A stretch of 64,000 nt of DNA from Methanoregula boonei 6A8. Its GTDB lineage: Archaea; Halobacteriota; Methanomicrobia; Methanomicrobiales; Methanospirillaceae. Both the position numbers and the translations under genes were made by a program. The stretch covers positions 682,001-746,000 of the forward strand of contig NC_009712.1 of assembly GCF_000017625.1 (NCBI RefSeq). The letters are read 5' to 3'. The notes beneath the pieces are model-generated. The model was not told where the DNA came from, did not search any database, and saw nothing but the letters and a program-made list of their open reading frames with translations. Shown in pieces: positions 27,484 to 63,417 of this stretch; the stretch's first letter is position 1, and each line of letters begins with the position of its first letter.

Positions 27484-27523
27484 TCCCCGCCTCAGGACCC
27501 CTTATGGGGCACGGCGGGGCAAG
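27484..27523. repeat. dispersed hairpin repeat, copy 1
   Basis: A 40-bp element with nested inverted repeats: outer CCCCGCC (27485-27491) with GGCGGGG (27513-27519), inner CCCC-TTAT-GGGG. It matches 33 of 40 positions of a second copy at 58458-58497, with paired changes in the loop region. It overlaps the 3' end of the membrane-protein gene at 27492. A looser relative in reverse may lie near 28376-28405. Confidence 0.6.
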
Positions 27524-28261
27524 ATGTGAATTTACAAGTGAAATATTTCCAATTTTCATCTGATCGTTTTATGACAATGTGAATGGAATTGATCCATCCG
27601 ATACATGTTAGAGAAAAAACAACCAAATCTAATGTAAATGAAAACTGTTTGAATGGCATTACATCCCTTATTACATATAATCCCCACAAAACCCCAAGAA
27701 ATGAAAAAAAGAAAATTACAATCATTTGACTTGGAAATAACTTCTTTCTCATAATTTCATTAGAGGGAAGGAGAATAAAAGGTACAAAAATGAAAATGAA
27801 AATGAACCCGAATGTAATACTCATTACAATTTCATTGATTTGAGAAAAAAACAGCATGAAAAACAAAATTGAAAAAACGATGATACATAATCCGGTCAGA
27901 AATGCCCAAAGATATAATAATTCTATTGTATTTCTCGTCCATCTAGCGTAATTTGCCTCTTTTATATCTTCTTGATCATTTGGATATTTCTTAATGTAAG
28001 CATAACAATCTGAAATTATAATTGAGGTTAGCACAACCACAACGAGCAGACTTATTCCGCTTCCCAGTTGAAGGAAAAAATTTGAGCCATTACTATTTGC
28101 GGTTTGCAGGAGGTATAATGATAAAGCTCCAAAAACACCGATTATAACGAGAATCTTATTCTTTTTGTTCAGGAAATTTTCAAGAGTGACTAAACTTGAA
28201 TTGCATACCCAGCAACTTGTAGGTGATCAGCAATCTCTGTATTACAATTAGGGCATCGCAT
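27492..28261 (-). pseudogene. zinc-ribbon membrane protein, broken by a one-base frameshift
   Basis: Reading from ATG 28261, the first frame gives MRCPNCNTEIADHLQV and stops 7 codons later. One added T in the TT run at 28214-28215 would continue as ...Q-V-C-W-V-C-N-S-S-L-V-T-L-E-N-F-L-N-K-K into the long downstream frame, creating C-P-N-C plus C-W-V-C, a complete zinc ribbon. The joined product would be 256 aa with the ribbon, a basic segment and about six membrane helices. The 182-aa part from 28040 is open. The cause is a mutation or a sequencing error in a short homopolymer. The family is unknown. Confidence 0.65.
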
Positions 28262-28514
28262 AATCCTTGATCAGAGGGATATTATTTGTTTTATTATTAA
28301 AGAGAACGGTTATATGGGTTGATTCATCAGCCACTAATCTTTCAGATAGTTGGATCCTATGTGGGAGTTCTCCCCCTTGCCCGCCGCGGGGGCGCCCCGT
28401 CGGGGGCGGCGGCATTCCTCGTTCGTGGGGGTATGGGGGCATCAGCCCCCATAATCATCATCCCGATTCCAAAATCCGGATGATCCATTCAGGCCCTTGC
28501 CAAAGATTTCCAAA

Positions 28515-28834
28515 AATCTTCAGCTGCTGAGTGACACATTTTCTGGAATCTTCAGCTCGGGATCCACTCTTTTTTTACAATCTTCAGCTGCTGAGCGACA
28601 CATTTTCCGGAATCGTCAGCTTGCGGCACGCTCTTTTTTTGAAATCCTCAGCTGCTGATGCGATCTTTTTCCTGCACAAGCGCAGGGTTCGCACAGGCTC
28701 CGACGGAGATTTTGAGGATTATTCGTGGTTTGGCAAATTTTGCTGCGGAACCGCATCGATCTTTTTTGAGAATCTTCAGCTGCTGAGCCGCTCTTTTTCC
28801 GGAATCCTCAGCTCGGGACCCGTTCTTTTTTGGA
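28515..28834. repeat. 32-bp tandem repeat array
   Basis: Units starting AATC(T/G/C)TCAGCT begin at 28515, 28547, 28579, 28611 and 28643, exactly 32 bp apart, and again at 28771 and 28803. The break from 28643 to 28771 is 128 bp, four whole units, so three diverged units seem to lie between. Units alternate between a CAGCTGCTGAG type and a CAGCTCGGG or CAGCTTGCGG type. Most end in a T-run. Ten units would fill 320 bp. Confidence 0.75.
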
Positions 28835-29644
28835 AAAGTGCGGGTCGCGGGCCGGCAATTCCGGAAAAAGAACTCCCCGGCAGATACTTATTCTTGAAAA
28901 GTTCTCCCCCTTTCCAAAATTTCCTCAAAAAAATCCACACCCCTTCGTCTGACTACTCCGGAAAATTCCAGATTATCGTACAAAATCAAAGGGGCCTCCC
29001 TTACTATGATCATAAGAGGGAGTCCCTTGCGAAATTCGTGGATCGAACGTACCCCTCTCCGGCTCATTTTGGGATCCGGAAAAAATGAAGGGGGGGTCCC
29101 AGATCAGCAAAAGAGGAGGGGACTCCCTCTCCACACCACACCTCTTCCTCCCTCTTGCAACCCGCCCGGTTCCGGTACACCCCCCCCCCTTTATAAAGGG
29201 GACCCGGGTGGCAGACTTAGGCTTTTCATGGATCCGTTCTCCGACGGAGGGTTTCCGGGCAGGATCCGGGTTCGGGTCGTTCCCGTGGAAGAGGTGCCAA
29301 CCCAATTCTGGATTTTGTGTTTAAATCGATATTTTGTCAAACGGGGTGTTTAAATCGAAAAATGACCGTGCAAATTAGCGGCCTTTTTTTCAAGGCCCGA
29401 AATGGGGAGGATGAATTGGTCTTCCTGGGGATTTTCGGCCGTAATTTTGGGTTTACCGCATGAAAATAACGGGTCTCTTTTTGGGGGTCTCCGGGATCGG
29501 TTTTTTCTTTGGAAAAATATCCGGATCTGCCGATGGTGGCCTTTGGTGTGGTGGGGAGAGGTATCCGGACGCAGAGATCCCCCTGTTTTCCCGAAAAATG
29601 ACCGGATCGGCTGATCGAAGATGAAAAAAAAGCAGGCCATGAGC

Positions 29645-29674
29645 AAAAGTTCCCGGATAAGGGGGAACTCTTTT
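29645..29674 (-). terminator. hairpin downstream of the DUF1254/DUF1214 gene
   Basis: AGTTCCC (29648-29654) and GGGAACT (29663-29669) form a 7-bp stem with an 8-nt loop, flanked by AAAA and TTTT that extend the stem across a one-base bulge. It begins 22 bp after the stop codon of the minus-strand gene at 29696, so it probably ends that transcript. Confidence 0.45.
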
Positions 29675-29695
29675 GCCCTGCCTGCCCCTCACGGA

Positions 29696-31153
29696 TCACG
29701 ACGCCGGGATGATTTCCGGCGGCTGCCAGCCCGTGCCATTGAGCATGCCCGGGATGTCGGCCTGTTCGGGACCGATGAGCCGCCACATCACCTCGAATCC
29801 CTGCCCGTCCGCGGTCGGCAGCCAGTTGCCTGCCAGGGCCGGGTCTGAAGGCGGCGAAGGCTGCAGGTAGAAATCCACCGAGCCGTCAGTGTTCTGCGTG
29901 AGCTGCGATGTGCTGCCAAGCGCAGACCGGTTGAGGGCATTGGGGATCATCATCCCTTTGAGGTCGTAAACGGTCAGCGCCCAGCCCTCGTCTGCCGGGG
30001 GAGCAGACGCGAGGTGCAGGGTGTAGTTGTTCGATCCGTTGAGCGGATTTTTGTTGTGATCTGCCCAGCTTATGGCATAGATCGCCTGATCGGGAGTAAA
30101 TGCCCCAAGGCCAATCTGGCTTATGACCGCACGCAGCGGGTAATCTGTCCCGTACTGTCCGAAGCCTCCCAGGAGATAGCCGTTGTGCTGATCGAAACTT
30201 TGGAGATACAGGGCCATGGTATCGTTTTTGATCTGTGCGGGACCGGCAGCCACTGCATCATTTAGCCCCCTGAGGGTATCCCTGCTCAGGCTCGTATTGT
30301 GCGAAGGTTCCATCCCGGGCCCGATCCCGACCCCGGCGAACCGGGCAAGCTCGGGCTGGTCGGCAGCCGGCGGGGGAAAGAGCGCCATCTGCTGCCCGAG
30401 CATATCATAGAAAGCAAGCCCTCCGGGCGCCTGGTAAATGATGGGGGTTGCATTGGGATCGGTCAGGTTCGATTGCCGGAAGTTTGTCCCGTACAGGCTC
30501 AGCGGCGTCAGGGTATAGCCATCCTGGATGCGGGTAACGTTTGCGATATCGTAACTCCCGTCCAGCTGGGTTGACCCGATAATCCAGATGCGGTTGTAGT
30601 CCACATCGACGCGGTGTGTCCCCGCCGGGATAGACAGGTTATACTGGCCGGGGCCGGCAATTACGTAATCTCCCGGCGGGGTATTGGCAACGCTGCCGAA
30701 GTTCTGGATGTTGGTGGTGTAGGGATCGATAAAGGCAAGAACGAAGAAGTGGCCCTGTACGTCCGGCACATGAAGGACCTCCGGCTCTTTACTCAGGTCG
30801 AGCCACGCGATGGACGAGAGCCCGGTCGAGCCCGGCGCCACAACCGCCGTGCTCCCGGCGTTATTCAGGGAACGTACGTTGTTGAACTGGTTGACCGGGC
30901 CATACGGACCGTTCGAGACATTGATGCTGGTCATGGTTTCAAACGTCGTGTTGGTCGCAATGAGCGGCAGGCCGTAGGTGTAGGCTTCAAGCCCAATCTC
31001 GTAGCCCCTGGTATAGTCGGCCTGTGATGCGGCCGACTGGTAAGCCGCAACCAGCACCATGGCCGCCACCAGCAGCGCTGCACAGATGACGATGAAAACA
31101 TGTTTCCGCGTAATCGCTTCGCATCTCATACGCGAAAAGTGAAATTTTGCCAT
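29696..31153 (-). CDS. secreted DUF1254/DUF1214 domain protein
   Basis: The 485-aa protein has a membrane anchor or signal at about 18-40 (HVFIVICAALLVAAMVLVAA). The DUF1254 part follows (YEIGLEAYTYGLPLIATN, FNNVRSLNNAGSTAVVAP, LSKEPEVLHVPDVQGHFFVL), and the DUF1214 part is C-terminal (SADEGWALTVYDLKG-like text: PPADEGWALTVYDLKGMMIP, LQPSPPSDPALAGNWLP). Such proteins occur widely in bacteria and some archaea; the reaction is unknown, and structures suggest two beta domains. It should face the outside of the cell. It is transcribed away from the lipoprotein at 31260 on the same strand, 106 bp downstream of it. Confidence 0.85.
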   Translation of the reverse strand: MAKFHFSRMRCEAITRKHVFIVICAALLVAAMVLVAAYQSAASQADYTRGYEIGLEAYTYGLPLIATNTTFETMTSINVSNGPYGPVNQFNNVRSLNNAGSTAVVAPGSTGLSSIAWLDLSKEPEVLHVPDVQGHFFVLAFIDPYTTNIQNFGSVANTPPGDYVIAGPGQYNLSIPAGTHRVDVDYNRIWIIGSTQLDGSYDIANVTRIQDGYTLTPLSLYGTNFRQSNLTDPNATPIIYQAPGGLAFYDMLGQQMALFPPPAADQPELARFAGVGIGPGMEPSHNTSLSRDTLRGLNDAVAAGPAQIKNDTMALYLQSFDQHNGYLLGGFGQYGTDYPLRAVISQIGLGAFTPDQAIYAISWADHNKNPLNGSNNYTLHLASAPPADEGWALTVYDLKGMMIPNALNRSALGSTSQLTQNTDGSVDFYLQPSPPSDPALAGNWLPTADGQGFEVMWRLIGPEQADIPGMLNGTGWQPPEIIPAS

Positions 31154-39799: not shown

Positions 39800-41386
39800 T
39801 CAGAGCTGCCGTCCGCTGTGGTGATGGGGGCCGCGCGGGGGCCTTTTCAGGAAGAACCATGCAGCCACACCGATTGCGATAAGGAGCAGGACCCCGGCAA
39901 CGGGAAGAATGCCGGAGGACCCGGAGGAGGATGGTGTGCTGGTCGCTTCAGCTGCGGGGGTGACCGCGGCCCGTGCAGTCTGGACCGTGGCCACCGGTGC
40001 CGGGGTAGCAGCCTGAGCGGACACCGGGGGTGTCGTGACCTCTGCTCCTGTCACGGTAATATACCCGCTTTTTGTGACCGTGTTGCTGCCCGCACTGTTA
40101 GCTGCCGTGAGTCTGACCGTATAACTTCCTTCCTCCGCATAGGTATGGGACGGGTTTTCGAGAGTCGATGAGCTCCCGTCGCCAAAGGACCAGAGCCAGG
40201 AAGAGGGGGAATCAGACGAGGTATCGGTGAACTGGACGGTCAGGGGAGAGCTACCCTCGCTGACATCTGCGGTAAATGAGACGTCAGGTGAGATCACTGA
40301 TGAGGTCACGGTGATATAATCAGATTCGCTTGTCTCATTACTTCCCTCAGAGTTTGAGGCGGTCAGCGTTACCGTATAACTCCCGATACTGGTGTACGTG
40401 TGGGTTGCATTCTGGGAAGACGACGTGTACCCGTCCCCAAACGTCCAGTACCAGGAAGTGGGGGAATCAGACGAGGTATCGGTGAAATTAACGGTCAGGG
40501 GATTTGCCCCGCTTGTGACATTTGCTGAGAATGAAGCGACAGGAACCGCGGCAGTCACGGTAATATAATCAGTCTCGGTGACCGTGTTGCTGCCGGCAGT
40601 ATTGGTTGCGGTGAGTGTCACCGTGTACGTGCCGATACTCGTATAGGTATGGGTGGGACTCTCTTCGGCGGATGAACTCCCGTCGCCAAAGGACCAGGCC
40701 CAGGAAGTCGGGGAATTGGATGACGTGTCCACGAACTGGACGGAAAATGGCACGGTTCCCGACGTCTCCACAGCGGTAAACGAGGCAGAGGGCACCGAGG
40801 CCACCTTTGTCACCGTGATCTCGCCGGATTCTGAGAGGGTGTTGCTGCCTGCGGCATTGGTTGCGGTAAGGGTTACGGTGTAGGTACCTACACTCGTATA
40901 GGTATGTGACGGGTTCTGTGCCGCCGAGGTGCCACCGTCACCAAAGGACCAGGCCCAGGAAGTCGGGGAGTTTGAGGAAGAGTCCACGAACTGGACCGAG
41001 AGCGGCACAGTCCCGCTTGTGACATTTGCAACAAATGCTGCACCGGGGGCAGACCCCGTTTTGCTGACCGTGATATAATCGCTTTTTGTAACGGTGTTGC
41101 TACCCGCTGCATTGGTTGCAGTGAGGGTCACGGTATAGGTGCCTGCACTCGTATACGTATGTGTGGGGGTCTGGACAACCGAGGTACTCCCGTCGCCAAA
41201 CGACCACAGCCATGATGTCGGCGTATTGGTGGATTCATCGATAAAAAGGACTCCAAACGGGGCAGTCCCGGAGGTTGCATTCGATACAAAGGCGGCTACC
41301 GGCGTGGATGCCGCTGATGCCGGCAGGACAAACGCCATGGCGGCCAGGAGGATGAAAAGACCCGCTGCAAGGGAAGACGATTTCAT
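39800..41386 (-). CDS. cell-surface protein with five PKD domains
   Basis: The 528-aa protein has a signal peptide (about 1-25), five PKD domains of about 86 residues each (each with the core S-W-x-W-x-F-G-D-G and T-Y-T-V-T-L-T-A-x-N), a Thr/Pro/Ala stalk (about 455-495) and a C-terminal membrane helix followed by a basic end (FFLKRPPRGPHHHSGRQL). PKD domains serve adhesion and as stiff spacers in archaeal surface layers. The DNA of the five units forms a tandem repeat. The gene is preceded by GGGGGAGAT and a leader of about 75 nt. Confidence 0.92.
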   Translation of the reverse strand: MKSSSLAAGLFILLAAMAFVLPASAASTPVAAFVSNATSGTAPFGVLFIDESTNTPTSWLWSFGDGSTSVVQTPTHTYTSAGTYTVTLTATNAAGSNTVTKSDYITVSKTGSAPGAAFVANVTSGTVPLSVQFVDSSSNSPTSWAWSFGDGGTSAAQNPSHTYTSVGTYTVTLTATNAAGSNTLSESGEITVTKVASVPSASFTAVETSGTVPFSVQFVDTSSNSPTSWAWSFGDGSSSAEESPTHTYTSIGTYTVTLTATNTAGSNTVTETDYITVTAAVPVASFSANVTSGANPLTVNFTDTSSDSPTSWYWTFGDGYTSSSQNATHTYTSIGSYTVTLTASNSEGSNETSESDYITVTSSVISPDVSFTADVSEGSSPLTVQFTDTSSDSPSSWLWSFGDGSSSTLENPSHTYAEEGSYTVRLTAANSAGSNTVTKSGYITVTGAEVTTPPVSAQAATPAPVATVQTARAAVTPAAEATSTPSSSGSSGILPVAGVLLLIAIGVAAWFFLKRPPRGPHHHSGRQL

Positions 41387-60579: not shown

Positions 60580-60751
60580 GGGGTTGTGGCCAAGCCCGGA
60601 ATGGCGACGGGCTCCAGCGGTCTTTGCGTTCAAAAAACGTGCTCGCAGATGATGAACAATGGGTCTGCTGAAATTGATGATGACCCGTTGGAGCACTGAT
60701 GCGCATGTCGGAGAGACCCGTCGATCGTGAGTTCAAATCTCACCAACCCCA
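60580..60751 (+). tRNA. tRNA-Trp (anticodon CCA) with a 98-nt intron
   Basis: Exon 1 is 60580-60617 and exon 2 60716-60751. Acceptor arms GGGGTTG and CAACCCC pair fully, discriminator A. After splicing, the anticodon arm is ACGGG-CTCCAGA-CCCGT with anticodon CCA (60614-60616), and the T arm is GTGAG-TTCAAAT-CTCAC. The intron interrupts between positions 37 and 38, the usual archaeal site cut at a bulge-helix-bulge. Confidence 0.92.
60618..60715 (+). ncRNA. box C/D guide RNA within the tRNA-Trp intron
   Basis: The intron holds box C ATGATGA (60649-60655), box D' CTGA (60668-60671), box C' ATGATGA (60677-60683) and box D CTGA (60696-60699). By the N+5 rule the D guide (GTTGGAGC, 60687-60694) pairs with anticodon positions 31-37 and points to C34. 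The D' guide (AATGGGTCTG, 60658-60667) pairs with positions 35-43 of the spliced tRNA and points to C39. Position 34 and 39 methylation by the tRNA-Trp intron is known from Haloferax. Confidence 0.88.
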
Positions 60752-62885: not shown

Positions 62886-63417
62886 AACCACCCATTTTTC
62901 CCATACGCTTTTTTTTTAAAGAATTCTGTGACCCGCCGTTCACGGTATGCCCTTTGCGGATCGGTTCAAAAATGAACCGACCCTATGGAACAAAAATTGA
63001 CCTGTGTATCTGTTCACGTAACCCATAATCGGGGGGAAACCGGGCTCTCTTTTGCCGGGGTATGCGACAGCTCCTGGACCCGGATCAGGAACCACCGCTT
63101 ATCCGCATCGGAAAGCGCTTTGAATCCATCAGGGGCCGGTTGTGCAGAAATGTTTGTGTTCATCGGGAAATCTCCTGCCCATATCCTTGTGGGCCTTACT
63201 CGGTTATTGATCCAGCCGGGTCATAAACGGCAAAGAATGTGGAAAAAAGGCAGGGGAAAATTTCCAGATTGTATTTACGATTGCGGATCCCGATCTGAGA
63301 ATTCCGGAAAAATCCGTCACTCACAGGTGCCAGTGGCACGCGGAATTATTACCATCACTTTCCGTAGAACGCACAAAACAACGCCACTTTATGAGTATAC
63401 GATAAAAAAATATAATT
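62886..63417. other. 0.5-kb gap
   Basis: It holds the T-run terminator and a perfect 8-bp hairpin TCGGTTCA-AAAA-TGAACCGA (62961-62980) without a T-run. A 152-codon plus-strand frame (62985-63443) starts 5 bp after the hairpin, but its Ser/Arg/Gly-rich content has no motif and it runs into the convergent gene, so I do not call it. Confidence 0.4.
62909..62917 (+). terminator. T-run terminator of fae-hps
   Basis: Nine consecutive Ts begin 24 nt after the stop codon of fae-hps. Archaeal RNA polymerase stops at such T-runs without a hairpin. Confidence 0.6.

Follow-up and report, generated by a model that had tools for sequence, protein, structure and literature searches.

Mosaic intergenic repeats built of regular units are known mainly from bacteria. 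Among these, BIMEs are described as regularly spaced REPs in alternating orientation, and it has been proposed that RAYTs spread them (PMC2817692). In this study, we analysed a window of 64,000 nucleotides of the archaeon Methanoregula boonei 6A8 (contig NC_009712.1, positions 682,001 to 746,000), in which an array of 32-bp units probably belongs to a mosaic family of non-coding intergenic repeats that is limited to one clade and BIME-like in working, the array being one copy among many. Like REPs and BIMEs, the family is intergenic, dispersed and modular, consists of regular short units, apparently with some dyad symmetry, joined into tandem modules, and differs in length between relatives; 52 profile matches lie in 21 places of the M. 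boonei genome, and none of 33 array segments overlaps a called gene. Unlike them, it is archaeal, its 32-bp lattice is contiguous and includes a core of 96 bp, and its strands are mostly uniform (23 of 27 scanned clusters of at least three units), whereas those of BIMEs alternate. A cognate RAYT was not found in the genome either, PF01797 (the RAYT family) having 0 matches there and, among the five array-bearing genomes, one match in genome G009 only. Because the strands do not alternate and PF01797 is absent from its own genome, we did not file the family as a BIME, and its absence likewise led us to reject a RAYT-driven REP in the strict sense; we read the BIME as the nearest known kind, with the family lying outside its definition.

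A sequence-only reading of the window had described seven units at exact multiples of 32 bp, with two subtypes alternating in a 64-bp higher-order unit, and both descriptions hold. The units start at 28515, 28547, 28579, 28611, 28643, 28771 and 28803 (steps of 32, 32, 32, 32, 128 and 32 bp), all on the plus strand. In the unit scan, subtype A comprises units 1 (28515-28546), 3 (28579-28610), 5 (28643-28674) and 6 (28771-28802), and subtype B units 2 (28547-28578), 4 (28611-28642) and 7 (28803-28834), giving the order A B A B A, core, A B. The tandem-repeat search that had been suggested (TRF) returned both periods over the array, period 32 at 28515-28663 (score 126) and 28770-28830 (score 80), and period 64 at 28513-28663 with a higher score of 209 and 83% matches. 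Subtype A is marked by TCAGCTGCTGA, while subtype B is without such a palindrome; the consensus sequences from 28 A+B pairs are AATCnTCAGCwGCTGAG..ACATTTTCCGG for A and AATCTTCAGCTCGnGACCCGCTCTTTTTT for B, TCAGCWGCTGA being present in A units and absent from B units, and by eye the unit junctions are near-palindromic. T-runs, noticed before in most units, in fact occur as at least four T in all seven and at least five T in five of the seven, with lengths of 4-7 here. The array had also been taken as non-coding, and called genes overlap none of it; an ORF of 185 codons (28531-29088) crosses it and was left uncalled by the gene caller. As to its extent, the seven units stand, but the end at 28834 does not, since two units on the opposite strand continue to 28892 (28829-28860, score 23, and 28861-28892, score 13, at a threshold of 12). 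On the minus strand, 28452-28506 resembles by eye the 3' tails of other arrays, and 28374-28451 is el4, a GC-rich dispersed element that follows arrays elsewhere. A second family member in the window, at 63283-63323 on the minus strand, is short and degenerate (profile match C1:745283-745323, E=3.1e-4). Elsewhere in the intergenic region of the array, at 29015-29130, AGAGGGAGTCCC and GGGACTCCCTCT make up a perfect inverted repeat of 12 bp.

Several readings of the window array were tried and rejected. A CRISPR array does not fit, as the units are contiguous and lack unique spacers, and the one interval is a core common to loci and species. The two strands gave z of -1.33 and -0.69, and a structured RNA was dropped. 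A bacterial promoter-like match within the core (minus strand, 28736-28709; 3 found versus 1.0 in shuffles) was set aside because, to our knowledge, archaea use no promoters of bacterial type.

With the window array as query, blastn found 24 matches in the M. boonei genome (2,542,943 bp), the array itself included, and since places elsewhere in the genome match at up to 1e-52, the array exceeds chance. The 64-bp profile was a sequence-only model of the 28 A+B pairs, 25 of them from 8 places in the same genome and 3 from G009, the only one of the four other family-bearing genomes to give training pairs; it returned the 52 matches at E<=1e-3, which we ourselves grouped into the 21 places, 13 of them independent of the training set. 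The family is present in 5 of 39 genus genomes (M. boonei and four others) and, in a scan with stricter filters, in 5 of 232 genomes of the order. In scanned clusters of at least three units, from which the strand counts also come, 107 of 136 steps between units on the same strand (69 of 81 in M. boonei) equal an exact multiple of 32 bp, the remaining 29 being off by 1-3 bp, and by eye three divergent stretches (L018, L039 and L106) hold the 32-bp step as well. A generic 32-bp rhythm of T-runs in the genome was rejected, as a sample of 20 x 20 kb had no clear peak at 32 (78 runs of at least four T at that spacing versus a mean of 70.8, sd 9.3; 20 of at least five T versus 14.0, sd 4.2), and 400 kb of two relatives had no clear 32-bp peak either. 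Viral carriage was also rejected, there being 0 exact pattern matches to the repeat in viral_contigs. A literature search by titles and the beginnings of abstracts met no description of this family, which leaves such a description's absence unproven.

The arrays keep mixed company. Four other dispersed intergenic repeats, el2-el5, are intermixed with them in the 581 kb of DNA compared, among the matches listed at C1:1798590-1798922, C1:1186755-1187160 and C1:806735-806840, for example; this comparison covered matches of at least 60 bp that were not near-identical. Array, el4, el2, el5 is a frequent order of modules among the matches listed, and other orders occur. Some similarity to the el2-el5 stretch exists in 22 of the 39 genus genomes. 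In its fullest form, the family consists of an array, the 96-bp core and a second array, often followed by el4, el2 and el5 modules.

The interval within the window array had been taken for a gap of four unit lengths, but the start-to-start step of 128 bp leaves 96 bp between units, or three lengths, and the interval (28675-28770, plus strand) is no mere gap: it is a conserved core common to other loci and species. The core lies between two arrays at 453, 608, 636, 710 (the window) and 1392 kb, and also in G009 and G051. A model of it gave 7 matches in M. boonei (5 strong, 2 weak), 4 in G051, 2 in G009 (1 weak) and 1 weak match in G003, so that it was positive in 4 of the 39 genus genomes, every one of them array-bearing. 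A C/D-box RNA in the core was rejected, since neither the window copy nor that of G009 retains the motif. Five M. boonei copies of the core, each taken together with the two units before and the two after it, give a gapless alignment of 224 bp in which identity to the consensus is 81%. They show 213 substitutions and 0 indels, a lower share of indels than in el2 (p=0.02), el3 (p=0.002) and el5, controls whose copies were hand-picked with partial ones excluded; with four copies from other species added the figures become 511 substitutions and 11 indels, and the difference disappears for both el2 (p=0.67) and el3 (p=0.18), so that the copies may or may not be under a constraint on length. The core length stays in phase, a length that neutrality does not demand, and this counts against the explanation we prefer.

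The lattice and the phased core would also be expected of a binding array in which a protein that organises DNA (in the nucleoid, in segregation or in chromatin) loads at the core and occupies the same helix face every 32 bp. The exact steps, the conserved core in phase and the indel-free M. boonei copies speak for it, as does a low end-to-end ratio in predicted curvature at the window (3 of 200 shuffles as low) and at L011 (1 of 200). The 29 steps that are off register speak against it, as do ordinary curvature at L012 (153 of 200) and L009 (76 of 200), the uneven placing of arrays in the genome, and the want of a candidate protein. Across 7 stretches of 5 arrays, 8, 3, 153, 7, 19, 1 and 76 of 200 shuffles were as low in a wedge model, and curvature was rejected as a shared property; the earlier suggestion that a bound protein would look out from a single side of the helix meets unusual curvature in some arrays and ordinary curvature in others. 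The single histone gene of M. boonei does not discriminate, for 37 of the 39 genomes have histones and 5 of the 39 have arrays, and histone positioning was rejected as a specific cause. On balance we consider a binding array distinctly unlikely, and take the array as a copy of a BIME-like repeat family in what follows.

The window array itself appears, from comparison with its own flanks and with a locus in G051, to be an in-place inversion of a 330-bp block (28507-28836) along its own 32-bp grid. In G051, el4 and then array-core-array come after a gene that we read as gatE on the basis of its sequence and not of a family search. The el4 element has the same orientation in both genomes (window 28381-28450 matches L171 1184-1253), and the array is reversed between them (window 28539-28817 matches L171 1743-1463). 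The flanks of the block keep the minus orientation, in the unit at 28829-28860, weakly in that at 28861-28892, and in the tail at 28452-28506. At the block ends lies a 10-bp inverted repeat (left arm TTTCCAAAAA, 28507-28516, plus; right arm 28827-28836, minus), a length that none of 2000 shuffles reached when the two ends of 35 bp were randomised. When the block was flipped back in silico, unbroken 32-bp units, core and tail were restored on both sides in the G051 order, and el4 and array are co-oriented at all five other places, among the matches listed in the 581 kb of DNA compared, where el4 follows an array within 60 bp. Two further strand switches sit on a shared junction with a step of 36 (32+4), one at 1798427 in M. 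boonei and one in the corresponding pair L117/L118. The inverted repeat marks the breakpoints but says little on the enzyme, and is not in itself a sign of a dedicated recombinase, because junction sequences are alike throughout the arrays. Among six genomes searched for the putative gatE, an array lies beside it in G051; no array was found in the ~2.1 kb after it in G003, the G009 contig ends at it, G040 and G053 gave no family match, and G044 gave a single match on another contig. The gatE loci are not identical, the window having ~1.5 kb with other genes between gatE and el4.

In having a block flanked by inverted repeats in opposite orientations in related genomes, with many possible junctions, the family recalls invertons and shufflons. 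The junction lattice might be imagined as a working non-coding shufflon, with self-complementary sites every 32 bp, where blocks of n x 32 bp flip in register and redirect T-tracts (as transcription stops or a binding face) relative to neighbouring genes, and where a binding protein or a dedicated recombinase would act at the core. The same block was found in both orientations, at the window and the G051 locus, though between species only, and the window, unlike invertons and shufflons, has repeats of 10 bp and a block without known promoter or gene. A working shufflon of this kind seems to us highly improbable.

Array length differs at corresponding loci: at gatE (window and G051), after an FKBP gene (PF00254; 636 kb, G009 and G003), where M. 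boonei has 12 scored units and the core and G009 and G003 have two or three units, and at 806 kb, where G009 has an array with core versus five units in M. boonei; a fourth locus, 1691 kb and G009, is a weaker case. L012 (C1:2066440-2066855) has 13 units in exact register, with near-identical 64-bp repeats, a fresh 64-bp amplification. Its neighbours are a nitrogenase-component-like gene on one side and, on the other, a gene for an amino acid permease.

We infer recombination at the junctions as the cause of these changes. Through slippage or recombination, arrays would gain or lose units in 32- or 64-bp steps. The junctions of units are similar to the palindrome TTTTCCGGAAAA; any two of them would thus be inverted repeats of each other, and the DNA enclosed by two junctions could then flip with the 32-bp register retained, the window copy being putatively such a flipped block of 330 bp. 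It counts against this explanation that no mobilising enzyme was identified, the RAYT family included. A non-autonomous, MITE-like mobile element, moved by some transposase, would share with the family that it is short, non-coding, dispersed and clade-restricted, and complete array-core-array units do recur at distant places; unlike MITE-type elements, the family is dominated by direct-repeat arrays, and the lack of PF01797 in the genome tells against movement of this sort, which we think very doubtful. The BIME-like repeat is presumably kept for the most part because intergenic DNA close to the 3' ends of genes is tolerated, any role of its own being secondary at most.

The position of arrays near genes bears on this. 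The 33 segments were hand-chosen from blastn and profile matches, most at E<=0.05 in the profile search; 1186730 (E 0.32) and 1082950 (profile E 0.97, blastn E 3.2e-5) were kept beside stronger matches, and among those left out at E>0.05 were 1249792 (judged by eye to fall within a gene), 1344218, 1845799, 225045 and 2406047. Of the 17 segments no more than 130 bp away from the end of a called gene, a cut-off set after the distances were seen, 15 are at the 3' end (two-sided p=0.002). Neighbouring gene pairs at arrays (n=31; 10 convergent, 18 co-directional, 3 divergent) differ little from those at background gaps above 300 bp (n=100; 24, 55 and 21).

It has been reported that aCPSF1 binds RNAs better when they carry more than one U-tract (PMC8716108). 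An array of archaeal U-tract terminators, in which aCPSF1/FttA would bind the T-runs on the transcript strand and a series of them would make termination strong, would suit the T-runs of 4-7 in all seven window units and the frequent position after genes. The T-strand follows the gene in 9 of the 15 close 3'-end segments and, in our reading, agrees in G051 with the gene ending towards the array. It opposes the gene in the other 6, and relative to the upstream gene it is the same in 22 and opposite in 11 of all 33 segments (21 and 12 after correction of the window case, which the gene caller misjudged); no plus-strand gene ends beside the T-strand of the window array. The earlier proposal that the T-runs could stop transcription finds mixed agreement in these counts. 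Terminators need neither a fixed 32-bp register nor a conserved core, no hairpin terminator-like site falls in 28515-28834 (all 7 within 28250-29700 are outside the array), and at L012 the T-run has turned into TTTAAAAAA in most B units. Termination as the arrays' function is thus unlikely, and a tolerated BIME-like repeat remains our preferred reading.

Even if ordinary, the family accounts for many odd intergenic stretches of the M. boonei genome, and warns that a single array should not be taken for a regulator. If the lattice, the fixed-length core and the register-keeping inversions are true, it would be a clear archaeal system for repeat spread without RAYT, in which one could ask whether phased T-tracts by gene ends affect transcription or chromosome structure.

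Other observations concern the rest of the window. On the minus strand at ~27492-28259, the gene caller missed a small gene with a zinc-ribbon-like start and a membrane part in different frames, apparently frameshifted, and Pfam gave no match for its open part; further genes may be missed. The window also contains a tandem repeat of 255 bp at 40584-41206 (2.4 copies, 74% matches). At 60580-60751, an Rfam tRNA match unreported by ARAGORN contains a C/D-box sR3 match (60645-60701), which resembles intron-borne sR3.
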